NCBI GenBank assembly: GCA_021464415.1
Contig: CM038471.1
Location: 78,164,414-78,228,413, forward strand
Source of the DNA: Lonicera japonica
Taxonomy: Eukaryota; Streptophyta; Magnoliopsida; Dipsacales; Caprifoliaceae
Reading direction: 5' to 3'
Length of the DNA stretch: 64,000 nucleotides
This document shows, piece after piece, positions 34,658 to 58,795 of this stretch (within the stretch, counting starts at the first letter, position 1; the number at the start of each line of letters is the position of its first letter). The translations under genes were made by a program, and so were the position numbers. The notes under the pieces were generated by a model. The model saw nothing but the letters and a program-made list of their open reading frames with translations, ran no database searches and was not told the origin of the DNA.

Positions 34658-35064
34658 GGGAAAATTTCCTACGCGGATTACTATTCACGGATGAACAGTA
34701 CGGATTGGTCAATTTGGCACGCTTTCTGATGAAATTTTTTGATGAAATTTTGTGGGGATGTTCTTCATCGTGTGTAGAACATCTCCACCAAATTTCATCA
34801 AAAAATTCAACCGGGAAGTGGGTTAACTACGTGATTGAAAAATATTGGTCCAAAAATGGATTTATAAAATCCAATATTTTTCAATCATATAGTTAACCCA
34901 CTTCCCAGTTGAATTTTTTGATGAAATTTGGTGGAGATGTTCTACACACGATGAAGAACATCCCCACAAAATTTCATCAAAAAATTCTATCGGAAAGCGT
35001 GCCAAATTGACCAATCCGTACTATTTATCCGTGAACAGTAATCCCGCGTAGGAAATGCTCTGCC
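34658..35064. mobile_element. Foldback element: near-perfect 190-bp inverted repeat
   Basis: The left arm (about 34658-34848) and right arm (about 34868-35064) are complementary with few mismatches: for example CCTACGCGGATTACT on the left and AGTAATCCCGCGTAGG on the right. They are separated by a short centre near 34855. TATATATATA flanks both sides, so it may have inserted into a TA repeat or duplicated it. A transcript would fold into one long hairpin. The 87-aa open frame inside is accidental. Confidence 0.85.
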
Positions 35065-36345: not shown

Positions 36346-36366
36346 TGACGTCATGGATGACATCAG
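36346..36366 (-). promoter_or_regulatory. as-1-like bZIP element upstream of the viral TATA box
   Basis: On the minus strand two TGA(C/T)GTCAT-type motifs follow each other 12 bases apart (CTGATGTCATCCATGACGTCA, positions 36366 down to 36346). This resembles the as-1 element of the caulimovirus 35S promoter, bound by TGA bZIP factors. It overlaps the end of the last viral frame and lies about 170 bases upstream of the TATA box, further than in the 35S promoter. Confidence 0.5.
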
Positions 36367-37394
36367 TCTGTTTCATTGCCGTCATAGTCAAAGTCATAAT
36401 AGTCATCATGACCGTAGAGTGGGCTGTCTGGAGAATATGGACCACCATCTTCATCATTGCTGGTGTTTGCGAGTTCTGCAAGTTCTTCGCCAAAATTTCT
36501 AGCATTTGGATCATCATCATCAACAGTATCAGATTCTATACCAACGAATGCGTCTAAATCGGAACTTAATTCACCATAACTCCATCTGTGCGATTCTGCG
36601 TAAGCGTAGAGGCAGTTAAATAATGGAGTACAGGAGTGATCAGTCCAGTGGGGATTGAACCATGCGACCTTTGCAAATTTGACATGATCAGGAACTGAAT
36701 CATAGTCAACCTTGTTTAAGGCACAAATATTTTTCAAAAATATGACATAGTTCAAATTGTAGGGTTCTTTTATGGTTTTGGCAAGATTCTCAAAGAACCA
36801 TGCTTCAATAGTAGCATTAGAACCATCTGGATGGGGAACTCTGAGTGGGTCATGGAAATGGATCAGGCAATATGTGTGATGATGGACCTTGAGGGCTTCT
36901 TTCCACTGTTCAACAGACTTGAACCATTTTAGAAAAATAACAAAATTATACGAGCTGGGAACTCCATATAAGATTGCATGGGCATTTTGAGTTTCAGGGT
37001 CTGAAGAAGCAATCTGTAAGTAGAGTAACAGATCAGGGGCCTTGAAAATGAATCCTACATGGTAAGCCTTTGTAAAATACCAAAGGAAGACAAGGGCTAG
37101 CTTTGGGATTCGGTAACAGTAGTGGATATGGAACAAGGAGCAAAACGGATAGGTAGGATGAAGGCGAAGGCCACGGAAACAAAGACCATGTTTTTCAAGT
37201 AATATTTCTAAGTACTTGATGACCATGTCTTTTGCTCGGAGGTCAATGGCAAAGTTGACCACATGTTCTTGTAGCTCTGAGGGTAAAAGAGAGATGGCTG
37301 TCATAGGATCAAGGGCTTGTTCAAAATCTGAGAACTGAAATGGGTGAGAGGTTTCTGATTTGGATTTTGATGAACTGGCTTGAAAGGGATCCAT
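36363..37394 (-). CDS. Pararetroviral downstream ORF, unknown function
   Basis: From the ATG at 37394 (MDPFQASSSK) a 343-aa frame runs to TGA at 36363-36365. It is in frame with, and continuous from, the end of the RNase H region, so it may be a C-terminal extension rather than a separate ORF. The centre is hydrophobic-aromatic and may fold as a globular domain. The last 60 residues are very acidic (DDDD, DDYYDFDYD). I recognise no known domain. Florendoviruses are known to have a second ORF of unknown function at this place, which fits. It has no internal stop. Confidence 0.6.
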   Translation of the reverse strand: MDPFQASSSKSKSETSHPFQFSDFEQALDPMTAISLLPSELQEHVVNFAIDLRAKDMVIKYLEILLEKHGLCFRGLRLHPTYPFCSLFHIHYCYRIPKLALVFLWYFTKAYHVGFIFKAPDLLLYLQIASSDPETQNAHAILYGVPSSYNFVIFLKWFKSVEQWKEALKVHHHTYCLIHFHDPLRVPHPDGSNATIEAWFFENLAKTIKEPYNLNYVIFLKNICALNKVDYDSVPDHVKFAKVAWFNPHWTDHSCTPLFNCLYAYAESHRWSYGELSSDLDAFVGIESDTVDDDDPNARNFGEELAELANTSNDEDGGPYSPDSPLYGHDDYYDFDYDGNETD

Positions 37395-37649
37395 GACTTG
37401 GGTTAAAGTATATATGACTGGGAGGCAGGATACGGTTTGGGGATGGTGATCATTGAATTTAAAGGGTTTGCAAAAGGTTTTTTTTATGAATGGGGCGATG
37501 TGGGATGAGGATTTTAACTGTTCATTTGCGCCTTGTCTTGAAAAGAAGTCTGCAATAACATTGTTTTTGCCTTGAATGTGCTTGACTTCATAATCCCATT
37601 GTGAGAACCATTCTGACCATCTCAACATCTGTGAATTTGGGATTTGCTA
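37395..37649 (-). pseudogene. End of pararetroviral RNase H, after an in-frame TAG
   Basis: The polyprotein frame meets TAG at 37647-37649 inside the RNase H region and continues in the same frame: WSEWFSQWDYEVKHIQGKNNVIADFFSR is the usual end of RNase H (its final part is ADFLSR-like). One substitution therefore truncates the polyprotein. The base after the stop starts CAA, but the downstream context does not match the full leaky-stop consensus, so a disabling mutation is the simpler reading. Confidence 0.75.
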
Positions 37650-40541
37650 GTTCTTGAACTGAATCATGGCTGGAAATGAAGACATATCCATTTCAATCTT
37701 AATGTGGTATCCAATAAGATGAAACTGAAATTTCTCTATTCCACGTTTTACTGCTAGAATTTCCTTGAAAGTAGAGTGATAATGTAATTCACCCTGTTTG
37801 AATTTTCCTGATTTATATCCACAAGGAGTTCGAATACCATTCTTTTCTTCTAGCAAGATAGCAGCCCAAAATTCATCGCTTGCATCAGTTTGCAAAATTC
37901 TTTGACCATCTGAAGGGATCTGGAGATCTGGTAATTGAGAAGTGAGATCCTTCAATTTTTGAACTGCTCTGGTCTGAGCTTCTGACCACGGGGGTGGTGA
38001 CTTTTTCAAAAGAGCTGAAAGAGGAGCAGTGTATGTGGCAACCTTCTGAATGAATTGAGACATGTAATTCACCAAACCAAGAAACTGCTGGATTTGAGTT
38101 TTGTTAGTTAACTTGTCTGGGAATTTTTGTAAGTCCTTGGAAATATGTGGTTGGAGCTGGAACTTTCCGTTCTTAATCATCATTCCAAGGAATTCTATCT
38201 CAGTTGTACCAATAACCATCTTCTTTTCAGAGAGCATAATTCCATGAGTGAGAACTATGTGATGGAAATGGTGAAGGAGCTTTAGATGTTCAGCTTCATT
38301 CTGACTGAAGAGCAAAATGTCATCAATGTAAATTAATGCATTTGCTGCGATAGGCTCAAAGATAAACATCATGGTTTTTTGGAAAACAGATGGAGCATTC
38401 TTCAGGCCAAAGGGCATTACTGTCCATTGGTAGTGAAAACCAGGAATGCAAAATGCTGTTTTTGGACGATCAGTAGGGGTGATGCCTAATTGCCAAAAAC
38501 CGGCTTTCAAATCAAATTTGGAGAAGACATTTGCATTTGAAAGATGGCTGAACAGGGAATGCTTCTGGGGTAATGGAAATTTATCACTGGCTAGGAAGTA
38601 ATTCAGCGGTTGGTAATTTATCACTAGCCTCATTTTTCCTCTGACTTGTTCAGATCTTTTATTCACATAAAATGCTTCACACGCCCAGGGAGATGTTGTT
38701 TCTTCAATAAGCTGTTGCTGTTTGAGAGAAACCAATTCTTGAAGAGCAAGAGACTGATGTTCTGGATTCATTCCAGAATGAGATGCTCTTGTTGGATTAG
38801 CGTCTTCATTGAGCTTGAAGGGGAGTGTAACAAAGAACTTGCTATTTCGCCATAGCGGGTTCTGGCATTTAGTGAGAAAATCAACATGGGAGTCTGCACA
38901 AGACATAGTGACAATATTTCTTCTGAGAGTATCCAATGATATCCCTGGATCAATTGGATAAGCTGGAGCAGCTTGATAGAACATGAGAGCTGCATCTGGG
39001 TCATGCCATGGGAGAAACTGCTTCTTGTATTTGAGACCAGTATCAGAAAATTGTGCTTGCATTTTCTTGATAAGATCCCATCCTATCATCAAATCCTTTT
39101 GGGTAGCACTGCTGCCATAAACTGCATGCTTGATTCGGAGACCAGGAAATGGTTGAATCAGGATTGGTTTACTGATTTTATCAACATAGAGTATTTCACC
39201 ATTAGCTACACGAAAGGCTAATTGGCAAGGTTTCCATATTGAATCAGGGAGTAAACTAGGATTTATCACGGTTTTGGTAGAACCGGTATCAAAGAGGGCC
39301 AAAACAGTTATCGGTTTAGAATATGGCTCAGTAAATATTTTTACTTTGGCATGAGGTGAATGTATGGCAAGGCTTTCTTCTTGGGAAAAGGCAAGTTGCT
39401 CTAACGAGCGAATTGCTTCATCTGGGTCGTTAGAAAGCTCTGAACTAGCTTCTTCACTTGGATCATCTGATTCAATGTCGGATGCTTCAGATTCAGTGAA
39501 GGCTAGTTGCATTAAGCAACCTTGAGACGCCTCGTCTTGGGCTGAGAGAACTGATTCGACGTCCGATTCGGTAATTTCAGGTGCAAGTTGATGAAGAAGA
39601 TTCATGAATTGTGTCTTCTTTGTAGAATCAGGACAGTTCTTCGCAAAATGGCCAGGCTTATGACATAAGAAACACTTATCAGATTTCTTTCCTCTGAAGT
39701 TCCTTCTTGTAACAAACTTAAATTTCTTGAACTTCTTTTTCTGAAACTTCTGCCTTTTGAATGGTTTGACAAAAGTATCATCACGATTTTTATGGTGACG
39801 AGAGGAATGCTTCCGATATTTCTTCTTATAAGCCTTCTTGTGTTGAGAACAATCACAGCCTTCTTTGTTCTTACACTTGATCTTCCAGTGGTCTTTATTA
39901 CAAGCAGATTTAAGCATTTTGTTGGTCTTTTCCATATCATCCATGAGCTTTTTGTGATTACAAATTCTTTCGACAGAATCAAGGAGGTGCTCATATATAC
40001 GGCCAACAGAGAGATCTTTGAGCTCAATATTCTGCATCTTTAGAGTTTTCTGTGCTTCAGTAACTAAAGCATCTGGGAAAGACTGGAAGAAAACTTGCTT
40101 CAAATTTAAATCATCTAGACCGCCAATAGTATAAAATCTTTTTGACATTCTATCATAATGACGTTCTAAATCTTTTTCTTGCAGGGAGCAACACTTCATT
40201 CCCATGAATTCAGTACGGGCTATTTCAGAAAATTTGGATGGGTTTCCAAGGAATTCATTGTAAATGGAGCCAAGGAAAACATCAATATTAGTGATTTGCT
40301 GAAATTGGAGCTGTCTGTATTCTCCAAGAGCATCGTACCAATCATATAAACGGCCAACAACACGAGCTAAAAATCGTTTAATCACGGATCTGAGATCATA
40401 TAGCTCATTGTCAGCAACCATCCATGCTTTGAACTGAAAAAATCGCTCACGCCATTGGTTTGGCTTGATATCATCGAGGGTAAATCGGACATGATTATCA
40501 TGAGCATGGTTTGCCTGTGGAGGTGGTTGGTTGAGAGGAAC
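37647..40541 (-). pseudogene. Pararetroviral polyprotein, C part: capsid CCHC, protease, RT, RNase H
   Basis: This frame is open for about 964 viral codons up to the Tat insertion; the first five codons of the apparent ORF belong to the LTR. In order: a capsid-like helical region, a Lys/Arg-rich stretch, a CCHC knuckle CFLCHKPGHFAKNC (about 39634-39678), an acidic region, aspartic protease with FDTGST (about 39275-39292), RT with YIDDILLFS (about 38315-38329), and RNase H with QTDAS. It ends at the TAG at 37647-37649. No integrase is present, separating it from LTR retrotransposons. The N-terminal remainder is on the far side of the Tat element. Confidence 0.85.
40537..40541. repeat. Target site duplication of the Tat element, left copy
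   Basis: GGAAC directly left of the LTR equals GGAAC at 58791-58795 directly right of the other LTR. A 5-bp duplication is standard for Ty3/gypsy integrases. Confidence 0.9.
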
Positions 40542-41380
40542 TGTGAGAATCCGCAAATGCGACCTCCCGGGTCTCGTCCCCGTTGGTGGTGGGGGTCATG
40601 GGACGTCGGAACTGATTCCGTCGTTCCATTTGCTGGAGCGTTTTCATTGATTCATATCAAGTGTCCCTACGTTCTATTTCTAGATGCAAGGGGGTTCATT
40701 CAGAGTCGCCAGTACGTTTTTACGAGAAAACGGACAAAAAAGGTCGTGTAAGAGGAAAGGCTATAGACAAGCCTTTCTTTACACGTTTGTCTGCGAAACC
40801 GGGATTCTATAAGGTTCGGAAACTATATTACGGTTTGGGAAGGTGTTAAGCACCCATTCCGCCCTTTCGGTCTCTAGTGGGCTTATATGTTTATTCTATG
40901 TTGAAGAACTTGGATGCTTTTACCGACAGTCTACTGCTTTTTAAATGAAAACCCTAATTTTTGGGGAAACGGGGAAAGGGATGAAAACCTTTGTGTTCCG
41001 AGATCCGACGTTTTTGTATTTAAAAGATGTAAATGACAAATGACAAAAACCTTTTATTTTTGAAAGAGTATTCCGTATTATTTCCTCAGATAATGACGGT
41101 TTTCTCGAGTTGTGATTATTCTGAAAAAGGTTCGGATCTTTATGTCGGGACTAATTCAATATGGAATTTGAACTCTTTGAGGAGAGTTTATCAGACACGT
41201 CGCAGTCTATGAAAAAGACAGGATATGTGGATTTTAATTCCTAGATAAGTCTTTATCGGTCCGGGGTTTGAAAACAGGGTTTATCCGGACGATAATGTAC
41301 TTACTCTTCTGGTTTTGAAAGTAGTTTTATCAGGGTCTTTTGTTTTGAAAATGGTAGACTATTGGTAACTTGACAATAAG

Positions 41381-41386
41381 TTTATT
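41381..41386 (-). terminator. Candidate poly(A) signal in the LTR
   Basis: AATAAA on the minus strand lies downstream of the LTR TATA box, where the end of the repeat (R) region would be. The right LTR has the same signal at 58063-58068. Confidence 0.4.
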
Positions 41387-41720
41387 CAAATAAAACGTGG
41401 ACAGAATAACAGAAGTAAAACAAGTACACAGATATCTAATCTTAAATACTAGAAGGGACTTTCTTTACCTTTCCGACGAGAATAATAATAAGAAAGAAAA
41501 TATAATACGGCAGAAGGATCTCCGGCGATAATAATCTTCTCTTTCTTCAGATATTTCCGAGAAATCGATTCCGGAGACGGGACACGTCGAGTGTCGAGGA
41601 TAGATTCGATAATTCTTCAGAAATAAGATAATAGTAGAAAAGTGCTTGATAAAAATCAAATCTAAAGCTCCAAATTCTCAGATTCCAATTGCTGCCCCTG
41701 AACCCTTGGGGGTGTTGGCC

Positions 41721-41728
41721 TATTTATA
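41721..41728 (-). promoter_or_regulatory. TATA box of the Tat LTR promoter
   Basis: The minus strand reads AGTATAAATAGGCC. It begins 15 bases downstream of the nearest TGTCGCGCGACA palindrome. This is the expected promoter for element RNA when it acts in the right-hand (5') LTR, at 58403-58410. Confidence 0.7.
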
Positions 41729-41743
41729 CTGCTCGGGAGAGAT

Positions 41744-42001
41744 TGTCGCGCGACATTTCCTTAAAAAAGGAGAATGTCGCGCGACATTGTGATATGTCGC
41801 GCGACATACGGGAATGTCGCGCGACAAACGGCTGAAGTGATGGTTCTGACAGATTGATGTGTCAGAAAGTGGTTGGTCTGGTGCAGAGGGGGAATGTCGT
41901 GCGACATAGTGGAATTGTCGCGCGACATATCAGGGATTGTCGCGCGACAATGTGATATGTCGTGCGACAATCTCTCTAAAGAACAAGTTTGTCGGGCGAC
42001 A
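41744..42001. promoter_or_regulatory. Palindromic operator-like array in the LTR (9 x TGTCGNGCGACA)
   Basis: Perfect 12-bp palindromes TGTCGCGCGACA start at 41744, 41775, 41795, 41815, 41916 and 41938; one-base variants start at 41895 and 41958 (CGTGCG) and 41990 (CGGGCG). Start-to-start distances are 31, 20, 20, 80, 21, 22, 20 and 32. The array directly precedes the LTR TATA box in the sense of transcription. An identical array is in the other LTR, shifted by 16682. The same palindrome occurs before both antisense genes and nowhere else that I found in the window. Confidence 0.85.
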
Positions 42002-42108
42002 AACCTTCCTAGTGTAGTACCGGGTCCTCGGGTGGGTCCCGGACCCAAAATAGTAGTTCTCGGAGGTCGTTAGGGTTCTTGCGGGGGTCACGGATCGGGG
42101 TGTCTACA

Positions 42109-42118
42109 GACCCTCTCG
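42109..42118 (-). other. Probable polypurine tract of the Tat element
   Basis: The minus strand reads CGAGAGGGTC immediately before the 3' LTR, a short purine-rich stretch in the right position. Confidence 0.45.
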
Positions 42119-42219
42119 ACTCAAGCTCCTTGCTTGCAAGGAATTGAGGCGACTGGAAGAGACCTTGATCCATGGCTCCCGCAGGAACTCTAAGAAAGTG
42201 TATGCGTATAGAAGTACTT

Positions 42220-42990
42220 GTGAGTGCCTCCGGAGAGGGCTTGGCGATTGGTTTGCCTCCGCAGAGGGCTTGTGTTACCTCATTGCCCCTTTCGAGGACT
42301 TTCATTTGTTCCACTTTGCGCCTCAGATGGGAGGACTACCGTATGCCTCTCTGGGAGGAATTCGCCTCAGGTGGGAGGACTACCGTTCGTGCCTCTCTGG
42401 GAGGGCTTCGCCTCAGGTGGGAGGACTACCGTTCGTGCCTCTCTGGGAGGGCTTCGCCTCAGGTGGGAGGACTACCGTTCGTGCCTCTCTGGGAGGGCTT
42501 CGCCTCAGGTGGGAGGACTACCGTTGCTACACCGTGCCTCTCTGGGAGGGGTTTTTAGATCTTCTCGCCTCATGTGGGAGGACTACCATTGTGCCTCTCT
42601 GGGAGGGCTTCGCCTCAGGTGGGAGGACTACCGTTCGTGCCTCTCTGGGAGGGCTTCGCCTTCAGGTGGGAGGACTACCGTTGTGCCTCTCTGGGAGGGC
42701 TTCGCCTCAGGTGGGAGGACTACCGTTGTGCCTCTCTGGGAGGGCTTCGCCTCAGGTGGGAGGACTACCGTTGTGCCTCTCTGGGAGGGCTTCTAGATCT
42801 GAAAGAAGAAGGAAAAAATGCCTCTGGGAGGGCTTTCATGAGTAACTCTTGCCTCTGGAGAGGGCTTGTGATTTTGTGTATTGCCTCCGGAGAGGGCTTG
42901 TGTTTGTGAATTTGCCTCCGGAGAGGGCTTGTGTTTGTGCATTGCTTCCGGAGAGGGCTTGTGTTGGTGAATTGCCTCTCTTAGACTGCT
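42220..42990. repeat. Tandem repeats beside the 3' LTR (about 46 bp and 30 bp units)
   Basis: About ten units of roughly 46 bp sharing GTGGGAGGACTACCGT and CTCTCTGGGAGGGCTTCGCC fill 42320-42800. Units of about 30 bp with TGCCTCCGGAGAGGGCTTGTG flank them at 42225-42275 and 42845-42985. Long open frames across all three + frames are due to the repeat. Tandem repeats in the region before the 3' LTR are known from Ogre-type elements and can seed satellites. Confidence 0.9.
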
Positions 42991-43780
42991 AGAGTGAGAG
43001 AGAGAGTAGATTTTTGCGAAGGTAAAAAGAGCTTCTCAGGGTCTATTCCGGATGTCCGTTTCCCCGTATCTTTCTGAACTTTACTCTCATGTTTTCCTCG
43101 GGTGAAGATGTTTCACTCAGAAGGCAGTTTTCGGATTTCTTCGCTCTCCGTAGAGTGATGGTCCGAGGTTTTCCAAATCATCTCTTCTGTATCGTGCTGA
43201 AAAGAAAATTTGTTTGAAAGTTCAATCTCTGATCTTTATTCTTTTCTTAGTTTTCTCTTTTGGTGGGCCCACATCGTTTTCTGTTTTTTCGATGCCCTTA
43301 TTTCTCCCTCTTTTGGGAAAGACTTTTCCTGGCCCTCTCTGTTTTTGACCAGGAGTCTTTTCATCCCTTTGTCGTGATCAGGAGCCTTACTCACCCAAAA
43401 CGAAGCCCTGAGCCGGTTTTGGCCTAGCTGTCACTTTTGGTGTGGCTCTCCCTGTCACTCTGCATTTCTGTTTCTCTCGCTCGCTCTGGGCGCTCATACG
43501 GGTTCTTTCTCTTTTCTACTTTTTCAATTTTTTTCTATTCCCGTTTTATCGTGGCATTCTGCCTTTATTTGATGGTCTCGGTCCTTCTGTGAGATCAGAG
43601 ACTACTTTTAATCGCGGCATTCTGTTTTCGCATTTTTTCGGAGAGATGATTTGGAAGTTTTCTCTTTGAACTTTTTATCATGGGTGTGCGGTTTTTAGCA
43701 ATTTTCTGAAAACTGCTTCTCCGAAGTGCCTCTGCAGAAGATAAAATGAGACAAAGGTCAAAAAAAATCAGGGAAGAGGG
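42991..43780. other. Non-coding spacer upstream of the antisense PMD gene
   Basis: The sequence is moderately GC-balanced with no convincing reading frame. A 75-aa frame at 43442-43669 has no recognisable domain. Confidence 0.5.
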
Positions 43781-43785
43781 GGGAT

Positions 43786-43869
43786 TGTCGCGCGACACTT
43801 CGGTGCCTGGCTCTTTGTCGCGCGACAATGTGGCCATTTGTCGCGCGACAAACTGACCCACTATATAAA
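43786..43869 (+). promoter_or_regulatory. Promoter of the antisense PMD gene: 3 palindromes plus TATA
   Basis: TGTCGCGCGACA occurs at 43786-43797, 43816-43827 and 43839-43850 (spacings 30 and 23), followed after 11 bases by CTATATAAACCCC (TATA at 43862-43869). The first usable ATG is at 44017. The ATG at 43828 lies upstream of the TATA box and is not the start. Confidence 0.8.
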
Positions 43870-44016
43870 CCCCTTGCTGAGCTCATTCCACCTCATTCTC
43901 TCCTTTCTCTTTCTCTCTCTAGCTCTCTTTTTCTCTCTTTTCTTCTCTCCCAAGCGCGGAAGCTCTGCCGTGTTTTTGACTTTTCCGACCTTTTCACATA
44001 TATTCTACCTATATTG

Positions 44017-47000
44017 ATGGACCCTGCTCATCTCGACCGATTGGAGGGTGACCAGGAGGAGGTCACCTTTACTGACGCTCAGGGCGTTCTTCGCTGCAGC
44101 CCTCATCACGACGACTGGGCGGATTTGGACTGGTATGATGAGGATGGGATAGACCGCGGTCGGGCGGTGGTCTATCGGGATGCTATCCGAGCTGCTCCGG
44201 TCCCGGACGTCCCGTGGCTTTTGATGGAGCCCGTTTCTCACGAGATTCGTCGTCGATCTCTGGTATGTCTTCTTTCGTGCATTTATCTGTTCTGCTTCTT
44301 GTCATTTCCTGTATTCGTTTTAGATAATGTTAGTATGCATGTCTGACTAGGAATAACGCCCGATTTTTAGCGAACACATACTTTTACCTGTGATACCTCT
44401 TAGTTTAGAAAATTACATAATGTACCCCCATAACTCTATAACTCTCATAATTACACCAAAGTACCCTCAGGTTTTGAAAATTACATAATTTACCCTTATA
44501 ACCCCTATAACTCTCATAATTACACCAAAGTACCCTCAGGTTTTGGAAATTACATAATTTACCCTTATAACCCCATAACTCTCATAATTACACCAAAGTA
44601 CCCTCAGGTTTTGGAAATTACATAATTTACCCTTATAACCCCATAACTCTCATAATTACACCAAAGTACCCTCAGGTTTTGGAATTTACATAATTTACCC
44701 TTATAACCCCTATAACTCTCATAATTACACCAAAGTACCCTCAGGTTTTGGAAATTACATAATTTACCCTTATAACCCCATAACTCTCATAATTACACCA
44801 AAGTACCCTCAGGTTTTGGAAATTACATAATTTACACCTATAGCCCTATAACTCTCATAATTACACCAAAGTACCCTCAGGTTTTGGAAAATTACATAAT
44901 TTACACCTATAGCCCTATAACTCTCATAATTACACCAAAGTACCCTCAGGTTTTAGAAAATTACATAATTTACACCTATAGCCCTATAACTCTCATAATT
45001 ACACCAAAGTACCCTCATAACCCCATACTCGTTCCTTTGTCTGCAGTGGGTTGGCCGCGGTTGGGGTTCCCCCAACACTATATCTTCGGAGTGGCGACGG
45101 GCACCGGCCCCTGTCCAGGAGTTGATTCTTGCGACTCCTTTTGGCTCCCTCTTCGACGCCCTCCCGGAGCGGGTTTCTAGGGCGATAGTTTTGGTGTCGG
45201 CATTGGCTTGCCACTGGTGGGATACTACTCATACTTTTCACTGGAGCTGGGGTGAGATGACGATGACACCCCTTGATCTTTTTGCTCTGACCGGGATTCC
45301 TTCAGGGGGGGTCCCTATTTAGATCGACGTTCCCCTGCGTCTGACAGCCGAGGGCATTGTTAGTTCATTAGGATGGTTCCCGGAGCGGCGGAGTTCTGGT
45401 GACACGATTCCTCGGGGCGTCTTGGTTACGCGTTTAGCCACAGAGAGGGCTCGGCTAGTCGCTTCAGGGGTTCCTATGACCCGTCAGGAGGCGCGTCAGT
45501 ATGCCCGCGTCCTCCTTCTACTGACACTTCATGATCTATTCGAGGCTCGTGGTGGGGACACGGCTCATCTTTGGTGGTTGCCCTATCTTCGGGACTTTAG
45601 CCTCCTGTTTGACTACGACTGGGGAGGCTTCATTCTTGCAGTCCTTTACGATGCCATGGACCAGGTCTCTCGTCATTTAGCCCTGAACCTCAAGGGCTTT
45701 TCTTTGCTGTGGGAGGTACATTTTTTAGTCTTTCTGTCTTTGCTTCAGTTCTTTGCTCATTACTTGTTGATCATTGCTGATTTCTTCTATCTTTCCTTTT
45801 CAGAGCTGATTTGTAGCTTATACCCGTCTGGGTCGCGCCCAGGTGGATCTCCTCGTTGAGAACGAGGACCAGTTCCCTTTTCTCCGCCGATTCATCGCGG
45901 GGAACTATAGGGCTCCCTATTTATACCGGACTCGGGAGACCGGAGCTGCTGCTGTTCATGATCTGCGGGAGGAGCAGGTAAAATATTTTTAGTTTTCTTG
46001 CTTTTCCATAGTCAGATAAAGTAGAATATATAAAATACTGAAATAAAATCTTATTCTCTTTTCAGATTGAGTGGGCCCCTTGGGGTGATCTGGGTCATCA
46101 TTATGGGTATGGCCGTGCTCTGACCGCCTCGAGGACCAGGCGGCTTATCCGGGATGAGTACGGCCTTCTCTTCTACTTGGGCGAGAGGGTCATCCGTCAG
46201 CATACGCCGTCCCAGTGGCCTCGTGTTCCATTGTTCCCTCCTGTTCTGATGAGGCGGACGGGCGAGATCGACCCGGTGACGGTGCAGGCTTTGGTTGACG
46301 GACTCGGCTTCCAGACGTTCGTCGAGGAGGGAGACTATGCTATTTTTGCTGCCCGTTACCTGATGAGGGAGCCGAAGGGGACTCGGGGAAGGGTCTTCTA
46401 TGAGAGGTATCGGGCATTGGGGGGTGATCCTCATTATATACGGGGACAGACCCATTTAGCTAGGGTGGTTCCGGGTCATCTGCCACCTGTCCCTGATCAG
46501 AGGGACAACATTCCGGATTCTGAGGATGAGGATCCTGAGGGAGAGAGGGATGTTCCTGCTGCGGCTGAGGGCGGTGATCGGCCAGAGGGCGAGGGAGGCG
46601 ATGCGACAGCGGTTCCGGAGCCGCCACCTCAGGCGACACCTGCGGGGGAGCAGCGCGCTGAGGGCTTCGAGTTTCCCACCGGCCCTTCCGTGTCTCCGGG
46701 GGGCCTTTTTGCTGCTGCTGAGGCTGCTGAGGGGAGAGCGGGATTTTCTGAGAGGTCCTGGGAGCCCGCGGACCTTGGGGCAGATTTTGATCAGTTTGGG
46801 CGGACTCCTCCCGCGGCGGCGACTACTCCTTCTAGTGGGGTACTTCCTTTGGGGGCGACGGCCATGGTGGATCCTCCGGGGGTCCGAACATACGCTACGT
46901 TGACCCCTCTACCGGCGACTGTCATGGGGCCTCCCGCCCGATCTCCGGGCTTTGGTGGCTCATCCTCTCGTCCACCCTTGTTCCCCATTCGTGAGGAGGG

Positions 47001-47633
47001 AGGGTCTTCTTCTGCAGCTGCTCCTGCGGGGTTATCTATTTCGTGGGTAGATCTACCTCCACTCCCCAGAGATATTTCTTATGTCGGCGCGGGCCTATGT
47101 CGATATTCTGTCCCGGAGTATCCCCTTCCCGAGGATACTTTTGATTTCTTGGGTGGTCGTTCTGATGATGAGGTATCTTCTTCAACTTCTCCTGATACTT
47201 TCATGTTTATATCTATTTATTTTGACTGTGCTGACTCTCCTCTTATCTTATGTCTTTTTTACAGAGAGTGGGTGTACGGGTGGCGGATCTACGGGCCTGG
47301 TATGCCCAGTATTTCTACAGCTGGAACCTGCTCCAGTACGTCGGTCGAGACCCTCCAGCCTACATGCGTGACTATCAGAGGGCTATCGACATCTCTTTAC
47401 GGCCGGACGACCCCCTGACTTCCTCCCATGCCCGGACGGATTCTCGGAGGAGCAGTAGTCGGACTTCCAGGCGTTCCCGATCGTCGGTGATCCGTCCTAC
47501 GGCACCGGTTCAGTCCACGGGGCCTTCTCAGGCGGCAGTTCCTCCTGTTCCCGGCGTCCCAGTTGTTGATCTTACCCCCGAGGAGGGCTCGGGAGATAGT
47601 GGGAGCGTGTCGAAACGCGCCCGAGTAGATTAG
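44017..47633 (+). pseudogene. Antisense plant-mobile-domain (PMD) gene, five exons, two stops
   Basis: Exons 44017-44262, 45047-45715, 45804-45977, 46066-47172 and 47265-47633 have GT-AG borders and phase 0 throughout; the sum is 2565 nt (854 codons plus stop). Exons 1-4 give a PMD-like region: WLLMEP..., then HTFHWSWGEMTMTPLDLFALTGIPSGG, ALVDGL and the arginine-rich part. The rest is a long Pro/Gly/Glu-rich low-complexity region, then an exon with WYAQYFYSWNLLQY and a basic Ser/Arg tail ending KRARVD, a possible nuclear localisation signal. PMD (aminotransferase-like) domains occur in plant MAIN/MAIL proteins and in transposons. Two in-frame stops, TAG 45320-45322 and TGA 45807-45809, both explained by C-to-T, break this copy. 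It has its own promoter and runs against the element's RNA. Confidence 0.75.
44390..45030. repeat. 68-bp minisatellite inside intron 1 of the PMD gene
   Basis: About nine units of 66-69 bp containing CATAATTTACCCTTATAACC and ACCAAAGTACCCTCAGG fill most of the 784-bp first intron. The last units drift (TACACCTATAGCCC). The array stops just before the polypyrimidine tract and acceptor at 45046. The 98-aa frame at 44884-45180 is repeat plus exon and not a gene. Confidence 0.9.
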
Positions 47634-47947
47634 TTTTCCCTTTCTGCACTAAGTTGTTAGTTTTGGACAGATGTGTTTAGACAGATATTTAAAACTGTTC
47701 TTTTATTGGTTTTATAAAATATCTTTATCTGTGTTTGATTTATACTTTTATTATCTGTCTGTGCAAGATATATACACATATATATATAAGAGTCGGTAAT
47801 TTAAAAGTCATACCTTGTAGTGTAGTGATACTTATGTTTCCTGCAAAAAAGAACAAAGTGAGAACAGAAAGGTATCCAGAAGTGATTCTTTTGGCAAAGA
47901 TGACCATTATGTATAAGGAAACAAGTAGGGTGCCCCCCAGATGGGTT

Positions 47948-48057
47948 TGTCGCGCGACAATCCCTCCTGGACATGGGTTTGTCGCGCGACACTTCCCCCT
48001 GAAAGTGGGTTTGTCGCGCGACAAACAGGTACAGGACCCTCTTTTTTGCTATAAATA
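47948..48057 (+). promoter_or_regulatory. Promoter of the second antisense gene: 3 palindromes plus TATA
   Basis: TGTCGCGCGACA starts at 47948, 47980 and 48012, exactly 32 bases apart, each preceded by GGGTT. A TATA box (GCTATAAATACACC, 48050-48057) follows 26 bases after the last one. The ATG is at 48096, about 40 bases downstream of the TATA box, so the leader is very short. Confidence 0.8.
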
Positions 48058-48095
48058 CACCCATCTTCCTTCCTTCATCCCCACACCTCTCCAAA

Positions 48096-49352
48096 ATGTC
48101 TTCCTACCGTACCAACTCTGATTTTTCTTATGTTAAAGCTCGAGATGCTCTGATATCTTCTGAAAATGGTTTGAACTTTGGTGCATTCAGTCCTTTGGCG
48201 GGCTGGTGCCATCGTCCTGTAGATTTCTCCTTTCTGTTAGGTGCCTTGTATTTCTGGAGTCCTGCGGACCATCTCTTTCGTTTTGGACTAGATGAGCTCT
48301 GCCCAACCTATGAGGAGTTCTCCTGGCTGTTACGTTCTGACGTTCGTCTCCCGATGGCAGTTCCTATAGAAGGAATCGGTCCCCGCGACATGCTAATTGC
48401 TCTGTTAGCCATTCCCCAAGCGGCCTGCGATGGTTTCATTGTCGACGGGCTCCTTGACCTCCACAAAATGGTGAGGTTCTTTCATCGTTATGAAGATAGG
48501 GCCTCTTACGGCGTGGGGAGTACTGCAGCGGCCCTGATTTGCCTGGTTTCTGATATGCTGCTGGTGACAGGTTCTTCCCGTGTTGATCCGACTATCTTGA
48601 GTCTGATTTACCAGGCTAGAAATGGGGAGTCTATAGTGCCGATCATTCTTGCAGAGACCTTGAATGGTCTTGATGATGTTCAACGGGGGGCCTCGCCCTT
48701 CTTCCGGGGGAGCCCGCGTCTGCTATACATGTGGCTGTTAGAGCGCTTTCGATCGGTGGGTTTCAGCGGAGTTCGGCTCGACAATCCGACTCATTTCTTC
48801 CATCGGCCTCTCTTTGGTGCTTTGACCATGTCTTCCTCTGATTGGACGGTGTGGTTTTCGGAGAACTTTCGGGCTATCCGGTGGAACATTCCTTAGTGGA
48901 AGCTGAGGGCGATGGTACTTAGCACCGGGGGTCAGAACTACGTTCGGCTCCGCGGGCTTTGGTTTACTTCCTTTTACCTCCCTGGGCGTCTTCTTCGGCA
49001 GTTTAACATTCCTCAGGAAGTTCCCCTTGGTCTGAACAACTTCTCTTCTGAGTCTAAATTTGTGACCCCACATGTTTCTTTATCGGTAGAGAGGATGTGG
49101 CGTGCTCGACTGACTCGTCAGTTCAATTATGCCCGTTTTGGTATTACCCGGCCCCTCCGGGCTGACATTATCCGCTCTTGCTGGCAATCTCTAGAAGGAG
49201 AGCTGATTGATGACCCCTTTCAAATGGAGTGGTTCCGATTCATGGATTCTGAGCCTACAGAGGATGGCATTGTCTTTGCGTACCAAATTTTGGATGAGGC
49301 TCGAATTGATTTGGCCGCTGAGGACCCAGTGTGGCCAACCCCTAGGGATTAG
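48096..49352 (+). pseudogene. Second antisense gene, DUF7745-like, single exon, one stop
   Basis: One frame runs from ATG 48096 to TAG 49350-49352 with a single in-frame TAG at 48894-48896, so 418 codons in all. The segment LYFWSPADHLFRFGLDELCPTYEEFSWLL resembles the conserved start of plant DUF7745/PMD-related proteins (FW.P.Y..F.FG..DL.PT.EEY..LL), based on my memory of that group. A second half has LWFTSFYLPGRLLRQF and a basic C-terminal region. No catalytic motif is visible. It runs opposite to pol, ends about 230 bases from the pol stop, and an AATAAA follows at 49440. The function is unknown; a DNA- or chromatin-related role is inference from the PMD neighbour. Confidence 0.65.
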
Positions 49353-49585: not shown

Positions 49586-51319
49586 TTATTGATAATACTT
49601 CTTCAGTCGGTCCATGTTGACTGGTGAATGTAGTAACTGCCCGTCTAGGTCAGTGAGTATAGCGGCGCCTCCTGTATTGATTTCTTTGACGATATACGGC
49701 CCTGTCCACTTCTGCCCGAACTTTCCCCTCGGATCTCTGGCTGGCTCTCGAATTTCTTTCAACACGATGTCATTTTCATTGATACCCCGAGTCCTCACTC
49801 TCTGGTTAAATGCTCGAGCGATTCTCTTCTGATACCCTTGATGGTGGTATGCGGCTTTCAATCTTTTCTCATCTAGTAAGGCTAGCTCGTTATAACGTGC
49901 CTGGACCCACTCCAGTTCATTGACCTGATTCTCTAGCATTACTCTGAGGGAAGGGACCTCTAACTCGACAGGGAGGACTGCTTCCATCCCGTATGTAAGC
50001 GAGAACGGGGTTGCCCCGGTAGAGACCCTTTCGGTGGTGCGGTATCCCCACAATGCATATGGTAATTTCTCCGGCCAGTCCCGGCAGGTGTCGGTCATCT
50101 TGCTTAGGATATTCTTCAAATTCTTGTTGGCGGCTTCAACTGCCCCATTGGTTTGTGGTCTATATGGCGAAGATTTGTGTCGGGTGATACCGTATTCTTC
50201 CATGACTGTATTAGCTTCTCCTTCGAAGTGGGTGCCGTTATCTGAGATGATCTCGTGTGGGACCCCATATCGGCAGACAATATTCCTTTTGATGAATCGG
50301 GCAACTTTCCTTGCATCCAGGGTTTGGTAAGATTCGGCTTCCACCCATTTGGTGAAGTAGTCGATGGCTACTAGTATGAATTCATGGCCGTTGCTGGCTT
50401 TGGGTGAGACTTTCCCAATGACGTCAATTCCCCAGGCTGAAAAAGGCCAGGGAGCAGTCATGTTGTACAACTCTTTTGGAGGAAGCTTCTGGGACTTAGC
50501 ATAAATTTGGCATTTGTGACAACGGCGTACATGATCAGCGCAGTCAGTTTGTAGGGTAGACCAGAAATACCCTTGCCTGATGATCTTGCGGGCAAGCGTA
50601 TGCCCGCTCATATGAGGTCCGCAATCGCCCCCATGTATCTGATCCATCATTCTAACTGATTCTTCTTCGGTGAGACATTGAAGATGAGTCCCGTCGTAGT
50701 TCCTCTTATATAATCTTCCGGCACAGAGTATGAATCCTGATGCTAGTCTCCTGAGTGTGACCCGTGTTTTCTTGTCTGCTTTCTCGGGATACTGATGGTT
50801 CTTCAGCAGGTTCCAGATATCATAAAACCAAACGGTTGAGTCACCGTCTTTTTCAATTTCCACCTCAAGGGTCATGCAGTGCGCGGGTCCTGATTTCTTT
50901 TGTACCGTGAGGGTTATTTCTTCCATCCTCTCCGGAATATCGATCATAGATGCCAGGGTTGCCAATGCGTCAGCAAAACTATTCTGGGACCTGGGGATAT
51001 AGTAAAACTCCACACGCTCGAACCTTCCTGCGACTTCTTCTAGTCGGGCGAGGTAAGGGACCAATTTCTCATCTCTGATCTTCCATTCCTTCAGAACTTG
51101 ATGGACCACTAGTGCTGAATCTCCGTATACCTGTATCCTCCTTATACCCCTTTGAAAAGCGATCTCTAACCCGAGTATGCAGGCTTCATATTCGGCCATA
51201 TTGTTGGTGCAGAAGAAGTCCAGTCGATATGATACCGGGGAGTGAGTTTGGTCTGGAGAGACTAACAGGATGCCTATCCCGTTTCCGTTCCGATTGGCGG
51301 CCCCGTCAAAGTACAACCT
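49586..51319 (-). CDS. Tat pol, C part: second RNase H and integrase
   Basis: The frame continues from the PR-RT part after one TAG (51320-51322). It begins LYFDGAANRNGNG, the start of the extra RNase H domain of Tat elements, with catalytic Asp and later EYEACILGLE and YGDSALVV. Integrase follows: H2C2 zinc region (HMSGH ... CHKC, about 50500-50625), core with GIDVIG, SDNGTHFEG (about 50225-50250) and the Glu in VEAANKNLK, then a C-terminal region with GPYIVKEI. There is no chromodomain, as usual for Tat. It ends at TAA 49586. About 577 aa. Internally intact. Confidence 0.9.
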   Translation of the reverse strand, partial: RLYFDGAANRNGNGIGILLVSPDQTHSPVSYRLDFFCTNNMAEYEACILGLEIAFQRGIRRIQVYGDSALVVHQVLKEWKIRDEKLVPYLARLEEVAGRFERVEFYYIPRSQNSFADALATLASMIDIPERMEEITLTVQKKSGPAHCMTLEVEIEKDGDSTVWFYDIWNLLKNHQYPEKADKKTRVTLRRLASGFILCAGRLYKRNYDGTHLQCLTEEESVRMMDQIHGGDCGPHMSGHTLARKIIRQGYFWSTLQTDCADHVRRCHKCQIYAKSQKLPPKELYNMTAPWPFSAWGIDVIGKVSPKASNGHEFILVAIDYFTKWVEAESYQTLDARKVARFIKRNIVCRYGVPHEIISDNGTHFEGEANTVMEEYGITRHKSSPYRPQTNGAVEAANKNLKNILSKMTDTCRDWPEKLPYALWGYRTTERVSTGATPFSLTYGMEAVLPVELEVPSLRVMLENQVNELEWVQARYNELALLDEKRLKAAYHHQGYQKRIARAFNQRVRTRGINENDIVLKEIREPARDPRGKFGQKWTGPYIVKEINTGGAAILTDLDGQLLHSPVNMDRLKKYYQ

Positions 51320-54300
51320 CTAGTCTTCATTGATCTCGACGTTCATGATGGTTTCGTCCGGGAATTCGGCTTCTTCTATCATGTCTCCCAATATCGGATT
51401 GTGGGCCAGGTAATCAGCTATGATCTTGCCTTTGACTGCCTTCTGGGTCATGTAGGTGATGTCGAATTCGGAGAGTAGAAATAACCATTTTGCCATTCGA
51501 TTCGAGAGAGCCGGTTTCTCGAAGAGGTATTTCAACGGATCAATCCGTGATGCCAGGATGACTGGAAAAACTAGCATGTAGTGCCGTAGTTTCTGTGTTA
51601 CCCAGACGAGAGCGGCACACGATTTTTCCAATGGTGTGTAGTTTATCTCAAATGGGGATAGCTTTTTGCTGAGGAAATAGATGGCCTGCTCCTTCCGGGT
51701 ATCAGTGAGGTGTTGGGCTAGCATTGCTCCCGCGGCTGAATCAGTGACGGTTAGGTATAGGATTAGTGGTAGTCCGGTCTGAGGCGGGGCTAACACTGGG
51801 GGCTTGGAGAGGTAATCTTTGATTTTGTCAAAAGCCTCCTGGCATTGATCGTTCCATTCTCCTGTTGAAGACTTCCTCAGGAGTTTGAAGATGGGTTCGC
51901 ACTTTTGAGTGAGCTGAGAGATAAACCTACTGATGTACTGCAGATTACCCAAAAAACCCCGGATTTCTCTCTCGGTACGAGGCTCGGGCATGTCTTGGAT
52001 AGCTTGAACTTTAGCGGGGTCCACCTCGATTCCTTTCTTACTGACGACATATCCCAGGAGTTTTCCTTTGGTTACCCCGAACACACATTTCTGCGGATTG
52101 AGTCTCATCTGATACTGGCGGAGCCGATCAAAGAAGGCTCGCAAGGCTGATACGTGGCCTTCCCTCTCTTTTGACTTGATTATCATGTCGTCTACATACA
52201 CCTCTACTTCTTTGTGAATCATGTCGTGAAAGATAGCCGTAGCTGCCCTCTGATATGTTGCCCCGGCGTTCTTCAGCCCAAACGGCATAACGGTGTAGCA
52301 GTATGTTCCCCACGGTGTGATAAATGCTGTTTTCTCCTGGTGATCCGGGTGCATCTTGATCTGGTTATATCCGGCAAAACCATCCACAAATGACTTCAGG
52401 GCGTGGTTGGCAGTATTATCTACTATCAAATCGATGTTGGGCAATGGAAAATCGTCCTTTGGACAAGCTTTATTGAGATCCCGGTAATCCACACACATGC
52501 GGACTTTCCCATTAGCTTTTGGAACAGGCACGATGTTGGCTAACCACGAGGGGTACTCGATCACCCGTAAGAATCCCACACTCAGTTGTTTCATTACCTC
52601 TTCTTTCACTTTCAAGGACCATTCTGGCGTAAGTTTTCTCAGCTTCTGTTTGACGGGCCTAAGTTCTGGATTGGTGTGTATTTCGTGCATGACTATCTGA
52701 CTGTTCAAACCCGGCATATCTGCATAAGACCAGGCGAAGACATCCACATACTCTTTCAGAGTTTGTGTGAATTCGTCTCTCTCTGTCCCACTTAGGCTTG
52801 CCCCAATGCGGACCTCTTTTCTGTCCTCCTCTGTTCCGAGGTTAATCACAAGAGTGTCTCCTTCCTCGCTTTGTATACGTTGCTCCTCCCGTTCAGGGTG
52901 TTCGTTCATTCTTTCCAATTCCATATAAGCAATTACAGAATTAAAAATAACAGGATAACGCAAAATAGACTCCTCTTTATTGATACTAGTATTTACAGGT
53001 ACAAGTTTAAAAAGTTCATTTAGGAGTGACTCCTTCCTATCCTTACCCTCACTCTTATCTCTCACCCTTACAATTTCGCTCTTTTCCCTTTCCCATTGGT
53101 AGTCTGGATCAGCGTATATCAAGTGTACAGGGTCGTCTCCTGGCTCATCATCTCCCAGAGCCATGATGTCGAAGAGATCTCCGATCATTTCTTCCTCTTC
53201 GCCTTTCATGTCTTCACTTTCTTCCTTCGGCCCGATTGTCAACTTGGTAGCGAAGCTGTGTACGGTGTTTTCTTTGATATATAGGTCCTCTTCATAGAAG
53301 ATTTCCCACCCAGGAAGGTTCTCTCCGTCGCTGTTTCTCCAAGGCTCCTGGAAGCCGCAAAAGGGGAAGTCCTCTCCTTCTTTGACAAAGAACCCGTTCA
53401 GAGAGCTGAAACTCGGATACTGATGCCCTCGACCCCTTTTTTGTTGATCGTCCTCTTCAGTGTGTTGGTACCCCAAACCTTCCCTCTCGTACCTTGCTAC
53501 TGGTTCCAATGCTTGAAGTAGTCCTGGTTGTCCCATTCCCAGACCGGCTCCAGGCAAGTATTTCATCATTCTCAACATATTTATAATCTTGGTGCTGAGA
53601 CCGGGGATATTGTCAGGGGGAAGATACCTGATTGTCTGGGTGCTAAGAGTTTGCACTTGAGGCTCGTAAGAAAAGCCTCCTAACTGTATGCTCTGGCTCC
53701 CGATTCCCAAAACTGGTAACTCCATATCCGCCAAGGTCCTTTCAGGATCTCCTTGGATGGTAATTATGTTCCCTTCAAACGGTATCTTGATCTTTTGGTG
53801 CAAGGAGGAGGGGAGTGCTCCTATGTCATGTAGCCATGCTCTTCCCAACAGTAAGTTAAAACTGGAAGGAATGTCTATGATTTGAAAGTTGGCCGGGAAG
53901 CTTCCGGGACCAACCATGAGATCAAGTTTCAGAGACCCCAGAACGGCCCTCCTGGTATTATCATAGGCCCTGACGGTTACAGCGGATGGTGAGAGCTCTG
54001 AATCTGAGATACCCAAGCATCTGGCAGTCTTTAGGGGGCAGACATTTATGGTCGACCCATTGTCGATGAGAACTTGTGGCAAGATCTTCCCTCGGGTTCG
54101 GACGGTGATATGGAGAGCCAGGCTGTGTTTTCTCCCCAACGGAGACAAGTCTTCATCTGAAAATGACAGACTTCTTTGGACTGTGAGTGACCCGATCATG
54201 TTTGGCAGTTGTTCGGGTGTGGAGTCCGGCGATATGACAGCCTCATCCAGGAGTTTAATGAAAGCGGTCCTGTGAGGTTTGGAGGCAACCAAGAGGCCCC

Positions 54301-54526
54301 AAATGGTGATGTGTGCCTGGGTTTTCTTCAACTGTTCCAGTACTCGGTCTTCTCCTACTTCTTTTGGAGGCGGTGATTTTTCGGCATCCATCGGTGGTGG
54401 CTGGTATACCTTTCCTGAGCGGGTAATCTGTTGTATCCAAAGGGATGTTGGGTCTGATCCTTCTGAAGTTTCTGACGACTCTGGTTCTGCCGACCAGCTA
54501 AAAGTCCCGGGGGAGGTTTCTGTCAT
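51320..54526 (-). CDS. Tat pol, N part: protease, G-patch, reverse transcriptase, RNase H
   Basis: From ATG 54526 the 1068-aa frame carries a retropepsin-like protease (LIDNGSTINVCPLK, near residue 157), a G-patch-like segment (KYLPGAGLGMGQPG ... GLGY, about residues 325-360), an acidic region, RT (YVDDMIIKS near 52190) and the first RNase H with the LYLTVTDSAAGAML and YTPLEKSCAALVW segments. It ends at a TAG where relatives have Trp, before LYFDGA; TGG to TAG by one G-to-A change explains it. The frame is also the gag frame, separated from gag by a single TAA and 39 bases. Role: polyprotein for replication of the element. Confidence 0.92.
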   Translation of the reverse strand: MTETSPGTFSWSAEPESSETSEGSDPTSLWIQQITRSGKVYQPPPMDAEKSPPPKEVGEDRVLEQLKKTQAHITIWGLLVASKPHRTAFIKLLDEAVISPDSTPEQLPNMIGSLTVQRSLSFSDEDLSPLGRKHSLALHITVRTRGKILPQVLIDNGSTINVCPLKTARCLGISDSELSPSAVTVRAYDNTRRAVLGSLKLDLMVGPGSFPANFQIIDIPSSFNLLLGRAWLHDIGALPSSLHQKIKIPFEGNIITIQGDPERTLADMELPVLGIGSQSIQLGGFSYEPQVQTLSTQTIRYLPPDNIPGLSTKIINMLRMMKYLPGAGLGMGQPGLLQALEPVARYEREGLGYQHTEEDDQQKRGRGHQYPSFSSLNGFFVKEGEDFPFCGFQEPWRNSDGENLPGWEIFYEEDLYIKENTVHSFATKLTIGPKEESEDMKGEEEEMIGDLFDIMALGDDEPGDDPVHLIYADPDYQWEREKSEIVRVRDKSEGKDRKESLLNELFKLVPVNTSINKEESILRYPVIFNSVIAYMELERMNEHPEREEQRIQSEEGDTLVINLGTEEDRKEVRIGASLSGTERDEFTQTLKEYVDVFAWSYADMPGLNSQIVMHEIHTNPELRPVKQKLRKLTPEWSLKVKEEVMKQLSVGFLRVIEYPSWLANIVPVPKANGKVRMCVDYRDLNKACPKDDFPLPNIDLIVDNTANHALKSFVDGFAGYNQIKMHPDHQEKTAFITPWGTYCYTVMPFGLKNAGATYQRAATAIFHDMIHKEVEVYVDDMIIKSKEREGHVSALRAFFDRLRQYQMRLNPQKCVFGVTKGKLLGYVVSKKGIEVDPAKVQAIQDMPEPRTEREIRGFLGNLQYISRFISQLTQKCEPIFKLLRKSSTGEWNDQCQEAFDKIKDYLSKPPVLAPPQTGLPLILYLTVTDSAAGAMLAQHLTDTRKEQAIYFLSKKLSPFEINYTPLEKSCAALVWVTQKLRHYMLVFPVILASRIDPLKYLFEKPALSNRMAKWLFLLSEFDITYMTQKAVKGKIIADYLAHNPILGDMIEEAEFPDETIMNVEINED

Positions 54527-56470: not shown

Positions 56471-57204
56471 TTCAGGTATGCTTGGTCTCACTAGTCTTCC
56501 GGTATGATCTCGACCGGCCCAACCTTCCAGACTGACGTCGTTTTATGGCTGTAGACGACACCACGTGGCGAAGATGAAGGGAGACTATGATGCGACTCGA
56601 TTTTTGCCAAAAGAATCACTAAAAATGGTCGAGAGAAAACCTCGGAAAATAGGTGTGGTAAAGTAAGCCGTAAGGTGGTACATCCCCTACAGCTGTATGA
56701 CAAGTGTTTTAACTGACTCAATCTTAGATGCAGCGCAGGTGTTCGAACGGTTAAGGCTTCAGGCTCCCTCCTTTTTGGCAAGACCTTGCGATATACCCCA
56801 AGGGCGGGTACGTGCAAGAATCTTTTGATATACTTCCCGGGTACGTGAGTGTTCTCGTCACTCGATATACCTCGGGGGCGTACTTGGCCAAGGAGAGTGG
56901 AAGTAAATGCTTTCGGTTTATGTTGGCCCAAGCAAGCCAACTCCCTACTCACTTATAATACTTCCGAGGGTTTGGGGTAAATTCACACTCGTAGAACCAA
57001 TGCATGATTTGTGATAGTGCGTGTAAAGTTCGAAAGGTTGGTTTCACAAATATCATTATCTTTATTACGTCTTTTCGAAAAACTCCCATTTTTTTAGAAA
57101 AAGGTTTCTTCTCAATCAATTAACATGAGTAGGGAAAGCAGTAAAAGCAAGTTTTCAACAGATAAACAAAGGTCCACATATAAGAGTCTAGTTTTCTAAT
57201 GGTC
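56471..57204 (-). other. Tat 5' leader between primer site and gag
   Basis: The leader is about 730 bases. The open frame at 56491-56952 has no recognisable domain and ends at the gag start region, so I treat it as leader. Short repeats around GATATACC and GGGCGTACGTGC-like segments occur at 56790-56890. Confidence 0.55.
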
Positions 57205-58790: not shown

Positions 58791-58795
58791 GGAAC
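58791..58795. repeat. Target site duplication of the Tat element, right copy
   Basis: GGAAC, identical to 40537-40541, and in viral sequence on both sides. Confidence 0.9.

Follow-up and report, generated by a model that had tools for sequence, protein, structure and literature searches.

The 64-kb window analysed here, from contig CM038471.1 of Lonicera japonica (assembly GCA_021464415.1), contains an element that we classify, from its terminal repeats, its target-site duplication and its dual RNase H, as a high-copy long terminal repeat (LTR) retrotransposon of the Tat/Ogre type (Ty3/gypsy). The element lies on the minus strand and carries two accessory genes in antisense orientation in the interval from pol to the 3' LTR: gene 1, predicted to encode a plant mobile domain (PMD), and gene 2, which is apparently PMD-related. 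We found that a 12-bp palindrome, TGTCGCGCGACA, forms clusters directly upstream of the sense core promoter in the LTRs and of both antisense genes. The best explanation as a whole, which we consider about evenly poised between right and wrong, is that the palindrome is a family-specific operator, that a PMD-type factor made by the element would bind it, and that binding would sustain a positive loop against silencing. Accounts of giant plant retrotransposons call the role of their antisense accessory genes unknown (PMC7264820, PMC11963269), and a dense operator shared with the LTR turns that role into a concrete and cheap question of binding.

One palindrome at three promoters

A scan of the whole window for TGTCGCGCGACA with at most one mismatch returned 24 sites, every one inside four clusters, where dinucleotide shuffling predicts 0.01; relaxing the threshold to three mismatches added only two weak matches in the 64 kb. 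It is also the sole 12-bp palindrome not made of A and T only that occurs more than twice in the window. The 3' LTR cluster (41744-42001) has nine sites, six perfect and three one-base variants, and the 5' LTR cluster (58426-58683) has the same nine, again with six perfect. Three perfect sites precede antisense gene 1 (43786-43850), and three more, 32 bp apart, precede antisense gene 2 (47948-48023). The sequence-only reading of this DNA, in which the palindrome clusters at the LTRs and the two antisense genes only, is thereby borne out for all 24 sites (9+9 and 3+3), as is its statement that a TATA box follows each cluster within 11-26 bases. The box lies 15 bp past the last site in both LTRs, on the minus strand (TATAAATAG at 41720-41728 in the 3' LTR; 58402-58410 in the 5' LTR), 11 bp past it at gene 1 (TATATAAAC, 43862-43870, plus strand) and 26 bp past it at gene 2 (TATAAATAC, 48050-48058, plus strand). 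TATA-like strings are in themselves no rarity: they number 23 on the two strands of the element, some of them overlapping, and four adjoin an operator cluster.

The module across copies of the element

As the observation that would overturn it, the sequence-only reading had named a palindrome absent from other family members, or unlinked there to TATA boxes. In samples picked without reference to the operator we found the reverse. The LTR sample consisted of 20 of 100 listed core promoters, taken from row 9 onwards at roughly every fifth row: all 20 have three to nine sites (at most two mismatches), at least one of them perfect, and the gap from site to TATA box is 15 bp in 18, 14 bp in one and 44 bp in one. 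Composition-matched palindromes, drawn 300 times, gave no match in these sample sequences. For gene 2, the sample was the 30 best-scoring loci out of 102 scored in a search by protein: two or three sites, at least one of them perfect, are present in 29, the gene-2 core promoter was found in 28 (at most six mismatches), and the 27 of those having sites all show a gap of 26-29 bp. Six element copies picked by gene 2 served to check gene 1 and the LTR. The gene-1 cluster is present in 6/6, with three sites each, and the LTR cluster in all five copies that reach the LTR, one of these five being clipped by the end of its stretch.

The 886-Mb host assembly contains 29,561 perfect copies of the palindrome, against one for the reversed-pattern control. 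All 50 sites among the matches listed (100 rows, two strands) lie in element copies, across 12 regions; an element alignment was obtained in each of these 12 regions once fetched, at 75-93% identity, and their 53 perfect sites (the 50 plus three more) all fall within aligned element DNA. A site 8-36 bp upstream of TATAWA occurs 7,307 times (3,703 + 3,604 matches, a few places matching twice), with 0 + 1 for the reversed pattern, a control that shows the palindrome to be non-chance but says nothing on the TATA link. LTR core promoters number 5,255 (at most three mismatches) and gene-2 core promoters 1,644. Five site-TATA places that looked unlike the three standard types all turned out to be gene-1 or LTR promoters of the element family, one odd-looking place having 72% identity and one perfect site of three. 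Elsewhere, viral contigs contained neither paired sites nor any relative of the integrase, the reverse transcriptase or gene 2, plasmids yielded no match to gene 2, and eight stretches with paired sites were found in prokaryote contigs, in records titled as bacteria.

These distributions bear on the explanation that the palindrome is the site of a host transcription factor, which the element would have placed at three promoters for expression in the same cell. LTR promoters commonly rely on host factors, and a spacing from the TATA box that is 15 bp in most cases would suit any activator; presumably, too, the half-site TGTCG resembles sites of auxin response factors and the core TCGCGC those of E2F. 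Set against this, all 50 listed sites and the five odd ones lie in element copies, so that this sample contains no host gene with the site (host promoters themselves were not surveyed), the known auxin inverted repeats have wider spacing, and the G at position 2 of the palindrome seldom changes, unlike the TTT that we take to be part of E2F sites. We regard a host factor as unlikely, if still the most serious competitor. The concern, voiced with the sequence-only reading, that a host motif common genome-wide explains the palindrome is disfavoured by the same counts, within the same bounds: the motif is common genome-wide because the element is common.

Upstream regions of 20 other PMD genes (2.7 kb each, which may stop short of the promoters) gave none with two or more sites. 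Single matches with two mismatches occur in six of them (L059, L060, L064, L065, L071 and L072), and one match with a single mismatch in L062. No recurring 10-bp palindrome was found in any of the 20 regions; other 10-mers are repeated at least three times in 11 of them, including L062, L066 and L070. These other PMD matches are presumably mostly of the MULE type, and we read L071 as encoding a GRF-like zinc finger. Two further loci (G000:C1:76297746-76298825 and G000:C8:2656690-2673737) hold PMD matches that are full-length and have long open frames, and are probably host MAIL-like genes; the second comprises four neighbouring PMD matches, three of them open and one with stops.

Composition and persistence of the sites

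Of the 54 changes seen among the 109 sites of the window and the 12 regions, 45 are C>T or G>A. Binding may sense DNA methylation, as the sequence-only reading proposed; this pattern suggests no more than that the sites have been methylated in many copies. Positions 1, 3 and 10 are invariant in this set; in the LTR sample, with its 139 sites, one change each was seen at positions 1 and 3 and none at position 10. The G at position 2 is changed in 2/109 and 5/139 sites, respectively. Changes at the central CpG exceed those at the outer ones (24 versus 8 and 8 among the 109 sites; 34 versus 12 and 8 in the LTR sample), an excess that shared descent may explain, since 29 of the 34 are one recurrent change. 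Two bases outside the site stands an A or T (on the left in 106 and on the right in 108 of the 109), and self-complementarity of the flanks at offsets 1-8 is not clearly above that of shuffles, so the palindrome does not appear to be longer than 12 bp. Sites of the LTR sample are spaced mostly 20-22 and 30-33 bp apart, and 79-81 bp over the gap; the shorter spacings are near two and three helical turns and would suit side-by-side binding.

When LTR promoters are compared in 78 pairs, identity averages 0.93 for sites versus 0.81 for spacers, with sites higher in 77 pairs, a comparison biased towards sites; CpGs outside sites have an identity of 0.87, and sites are higher in 63 pairs. Sites persist down to 72% overall identity, though their number and their spacers vary. 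It is scarcely credible, in our judgement, that chance or shared descent alone produced this arrangement without any function. Family copies do have everything in common by descent, but the spacers differ among the three promoter regions, a decay-prone CpG-rich site is better kept than its surroundings (subject to the bias just named), and the shuffle expectation given above leaves chance little room. A structural role, as DNA or RNA hairpins, as recombination or packaging signals, or as amplified repeats, also seems very improbable. Hairpins can arise from palindromes, the LTR sites, being upstream of the TATA box, would presumably be part of the genomic RNA at its 3' end, and the number of sites differs among copies, all of which suits such a role; the same site nevertheless precedes two further promoters, just upstream of the TATA box and with different spacers.

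The two antisense genes

Antisense gene 1 (44017-47633, plus strand) is predicted to have five exons (44017-44262, 45047-45715, 45804-45977, 46066-47172 and 47265-47633) separated by GT..AG introns, and the window copy has two in-frame stops. Two pieces match the PMD profile PF10536 of Pfam with E-values of 2.6e-9 and 3.4e-4, and the exon 2 piece, with 37.2 bits, is above the curated cut-off of 34.9, from which we assign gene 1 to the PMD genes. Its intron 1 contains tandem repeats with units of 68-69 bp (44403-45017, the end set by eye).

Antisense gene 2 (48096-49352, plus strand) has a single exon, with one in-frame stop in the window copy (48894-48896). Of its two pieces compared with PF10536, the first gave no match and the second an E-value of 0.039. 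Its closest relative, the Lonicera macranthoides protein P0001, is 96% identical and matches PF10536 with 24.7 bits (E 1.6e-5, profile positions 27-317 of 347); its match to DUF7745 (PF24924) is weaker, with 12.3 bits and an E-value of 0.085. A distant relative, P0006, shows the opposite preference, DUF7745 (17.9 bits, E 0.0017) scoring better than PMD (E 0.031). The DUF7745 cut-off of 26 bits is reached by none of P0001 (12.3), P0005 (20.5) and P0006 (17.9). The label of DUF7745-like that gene 2 had received from the sequence-only reading is thus not the one preferred by its closest relative, but given P0006 it is not simply wrong; we consider gene 2 probably PMD-related, by a weak match. The annotated Lonicera protein begins upstream of gene 2, and its first residues (GLSRDT, VCRATN) correspond to a read-through of two operators, so that, in our reading, another copy seems to retain the operators. 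Seven antisense pieces scanned against TRP28 (PF04195) gave no match at E <= 0.1, and a search for solved structures related to P0001 found none.

At least 23 of the 30 gene-2 loci, from a search that favours good copies, have open frames of 416-418 codons. The median dN/dS of gene 2 is 0.087 (range 0.05-0.43) for the 236 of 253 pairs with dS above 0.1, the pairs being non-independent. For gene 1, the window against two other copies gives 0.109 and 0.093; these two copies hold stops (8 and 3 over the aligned codons, the normal end counted where aligned) as well as small indels, and in L014 one acceptor is away from its projected place. Values of about 0.09-0.11 indicate that both genes are under strong purifying selection. 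Selection on both proteins among the multiplying copies, alongside many copies that are broken, would fit a trans-acting factor.

A possible self-regulatory loop

The sequence-only reading is therefore supported in part: the operator-plus-TATA module exists throughout the family, and selection maintains both accessory genes. That three promoters have one cis site in common, within a narrow range of distances from their TATA boxes, suggests a single sequence-specific complex, which could act in trans to control the genomic RNA and both accessory genes jointly. Its DNA-binding factor would most likely be one of the element's own PMD-type proteins, alone or with host partners; the restriction of the operator to the family, the selection on the accessory genes and the precedents of host PMD proteins all argue for a factor made by the element. 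Binding would most likely keep the three promoters active against silencing, the factor being an activator or an anti-silencer, and the resulting positive feedback loop would work also in trans, on copies with broken accessory genes.

The position of the sites and the host PMD precedents favour a positive sign. Yet MAIN and MAIL1 also silence (PMC5418596), and under a negative feedback the PMD-type protein would repress the LTR and its own genes, limiting damage or timing expression. This finds some encouragement in the requirement of MAIN and MAIL1 for silencing certain elements and genes (PMC5418596, PMC7156037). We nonetheless hold it to be improbable: the sites, up to 9-10 in number, precede the TATA box instead of covering it, an arrangement more characteristic of activation, and a self-repressor would need a reason to be selectively retained among multiplying copies.

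Several points weigh against a positive loop driven by the element's own factor. The PMD match of P0001 falls below the curated cut-off, and a fold prediction for gene 2, made from six rows, had a mean pLDDT of 35 and was dropped. One gene-2 copy, L027, is without sites yet has an open frame; a deletion with short CACAG repeats at its ends appears to have removed the sites and spared the TATA box, and the element itself, one of the six copies above, retains its gene-1 and LTR sites. The 100 listed LTR rows all have the exact core and come from the first 31 Mb of one contig, and hence include no decayed LTRs; the element copies are related, which makes the counts non-independent. Sites were recognised by motif similarity, whence the bias in their comparison with spacers, and gap rates are nearly equal in the two (0.088 in sites versus 0.110 in spacers), which would be in keeping with gain and loss of sites. 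Lastly, the 20 other PMD regions fetched yielded no divergent element family that pairs another operator with a correspondingly different PMD.

A wider proposal, to which we give somewhat less than even credence, is that of a selfish PMD-motif module, in which one or both of the element's PMD-type proteins would read the palindrome in the LTR as well as upstream of their own genes, keeping every copy open in trans against silencing. If this is true, the MAIN/MAIL modules of the host are relatives or domesticated descendants of retrotransposon autoregulation, and the antisense genes of Tat elements serve transcriptional self-control. The main reading, if right, would in turn tie the antisense PMD genes of Tat/Ogre elements to the PMD-DNA motif modules of the host. 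Should an accessory protein bind the palindrome, plants would have an LTR-retrotransposon counterpart of VANC anti-silencing, and the control of host genes through PMD and motif would gain a possible origin. In any case, the 12-bp palindrome is a handle on a very abundant element family in this genome.

Structure and surroundings of the element

By BLAST and diagonal comparison, the 3' LTR extends over 40542-42108 and the 5' LTR over 57224-58790, both on the minus strand; each is 1,567 bp long, and they differ at two positions, neither within an operator site. Comparison of the flanks identified the target-site duplication GGAAC on the left (40537-40541) and on the right (58791-58795). The presence of GGAAC on both flanks and of only two differences between the LTRs indicates a young insertion. 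Pfam matches on the minus strand place gag, with a G-patch, at 54566-56491, and pol in two parts, one with the reverse transcriptase, an RNase H and a weak G-patch (51320-54526) and one with an RVT_3-type RNase H and the integrase (49586-51316). The assignment to Tat/Ogre follows from LTR ends that read TGTAGA...TCACA on the sense strand, from the 5-bp duplication GGAAC, and from the dual RNase H (RT_RNaseH in 51320-54526, RVT_3 in 49586-51316). The 5' LTR is followed by TGGCGACTCTGCTGGGGA, a candidate primer site; the Ogre primer site is described as complementary to tRNA-Arg (PMC9289625).

Between gene 1 and the 3' LTR, a short tandem repeat was recognised by eye (42300-42800); a separate repeat of the window (42849-42979) looks expanded in copy L075. 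The insertion site is endogenous pararetrovirus-like DNA (36363-40536 and 58796-63077), one side of which has reverse transcriptase, RNase H, weak protease and zinc-knuckle matches and the other a match to a viral movement protein (PF01107). In this pararetrovirus-like flank, identical blocks of at least 300 bp (60057-60356 and 62131-62430) lie 2,074 bp apart, a recent duplication. An inverted repeat with 174-bp arms, 95% complementary and 22 bp apart, occupies 34675-35044.

Comparison with known systems

Among host systems, the closest likeness is to the modules of MAIN and MAIL1 with PP7L, in which PMD proteins are linked to a short promoter motif. In Arabidopsis, MAIN and MAIL1 are needed for the expression of genes of which a fraction carry a promoter motif, and this 'DOWN' motif is present in 25 of the 26 genes whose expression falls in every mutant except ddc; its direct binding by PMD proteins is put forward there as a hypothesis (PMC7156037). 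In the Lonicera element, too, a motif stands at all three promoters, where it would regulate. The MAIN/MAIL1 modules consist of host genes and host proteins, whereas here the motif precedes the element's own accessory genes and LTR; the likeness is one of layout.

The sequence-only reading had likened the system to the VANC proteins of VANDAL elements (MULE), among which VANC21 binds a motif of 9 bp and affects no family but its own (PMC6419827, PMC13317346). The resemblance lies in a short element-specific motif repeated at many noncoding sites. VANDALs, which carry a VANC gene, are DNA transposons, unlike the present LTR retrotransposon with gag, reverse transcriptase and integrase, whose sites sit at promoters and whose gene 1 is of the PMD type. 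The comparison holds as a working analogy of layout, and the element is not a member of the VANC system.

Tax and the antisense gene HBZ provide retroviral parallels to a transactivator and an antisense gene. As with retroviral transactivators, a protein of the Lonicera element would act on its own LTR, a likeness of logic alone, since protein and site differ. A comparison with Tat and Rev has been drawn before (PMC7264820, PMC11963269), and regulatory roles have been suggested for the antisense genes of Tat elements (Grande gene23, RIRE2, and TRP28 of Retand), but the portions of these two sources available to us describe no operator shared between LTR and antisense genes. Unlike the Tat antisense genes described, gene 1 is predicted to be PMD and gene 2 PMD-related, with no TRP28 match. 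A PMD is reported in 57% of Ogre elements (PMC6317226), and the PMD-A1 and A2 clades are reported to be encoded only by Gypsy elements (PMC5418596). Our element resembles an Ogre with a PMD extra open reading frame (ORF), and differs in having two antisense PMD-type genes and an operator shared with the LTR, which the accessible accounts of Ogre do not describe.

Titles and abstract openings of the literature on PMD with motifs, Polycomb, H3K27me3 and DNA binding, on extra ORFs, on VANC and on LTR palindromes together with antisense accessory genes mention no such shared operator, and a search for the palindrome string returned a single, unrelated paper. Earlier accounts already describe antisense genes and PMD domains for Tat/Ogre elements, along with proposed regulatory roles (PMC11963269, PMC7264820, PMC6317226). 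What is new, as far as the literature searched shows, is the combination of two antisense PMD-type genes and an LTR that share one operator, together with a family-wide test of this arrangement.

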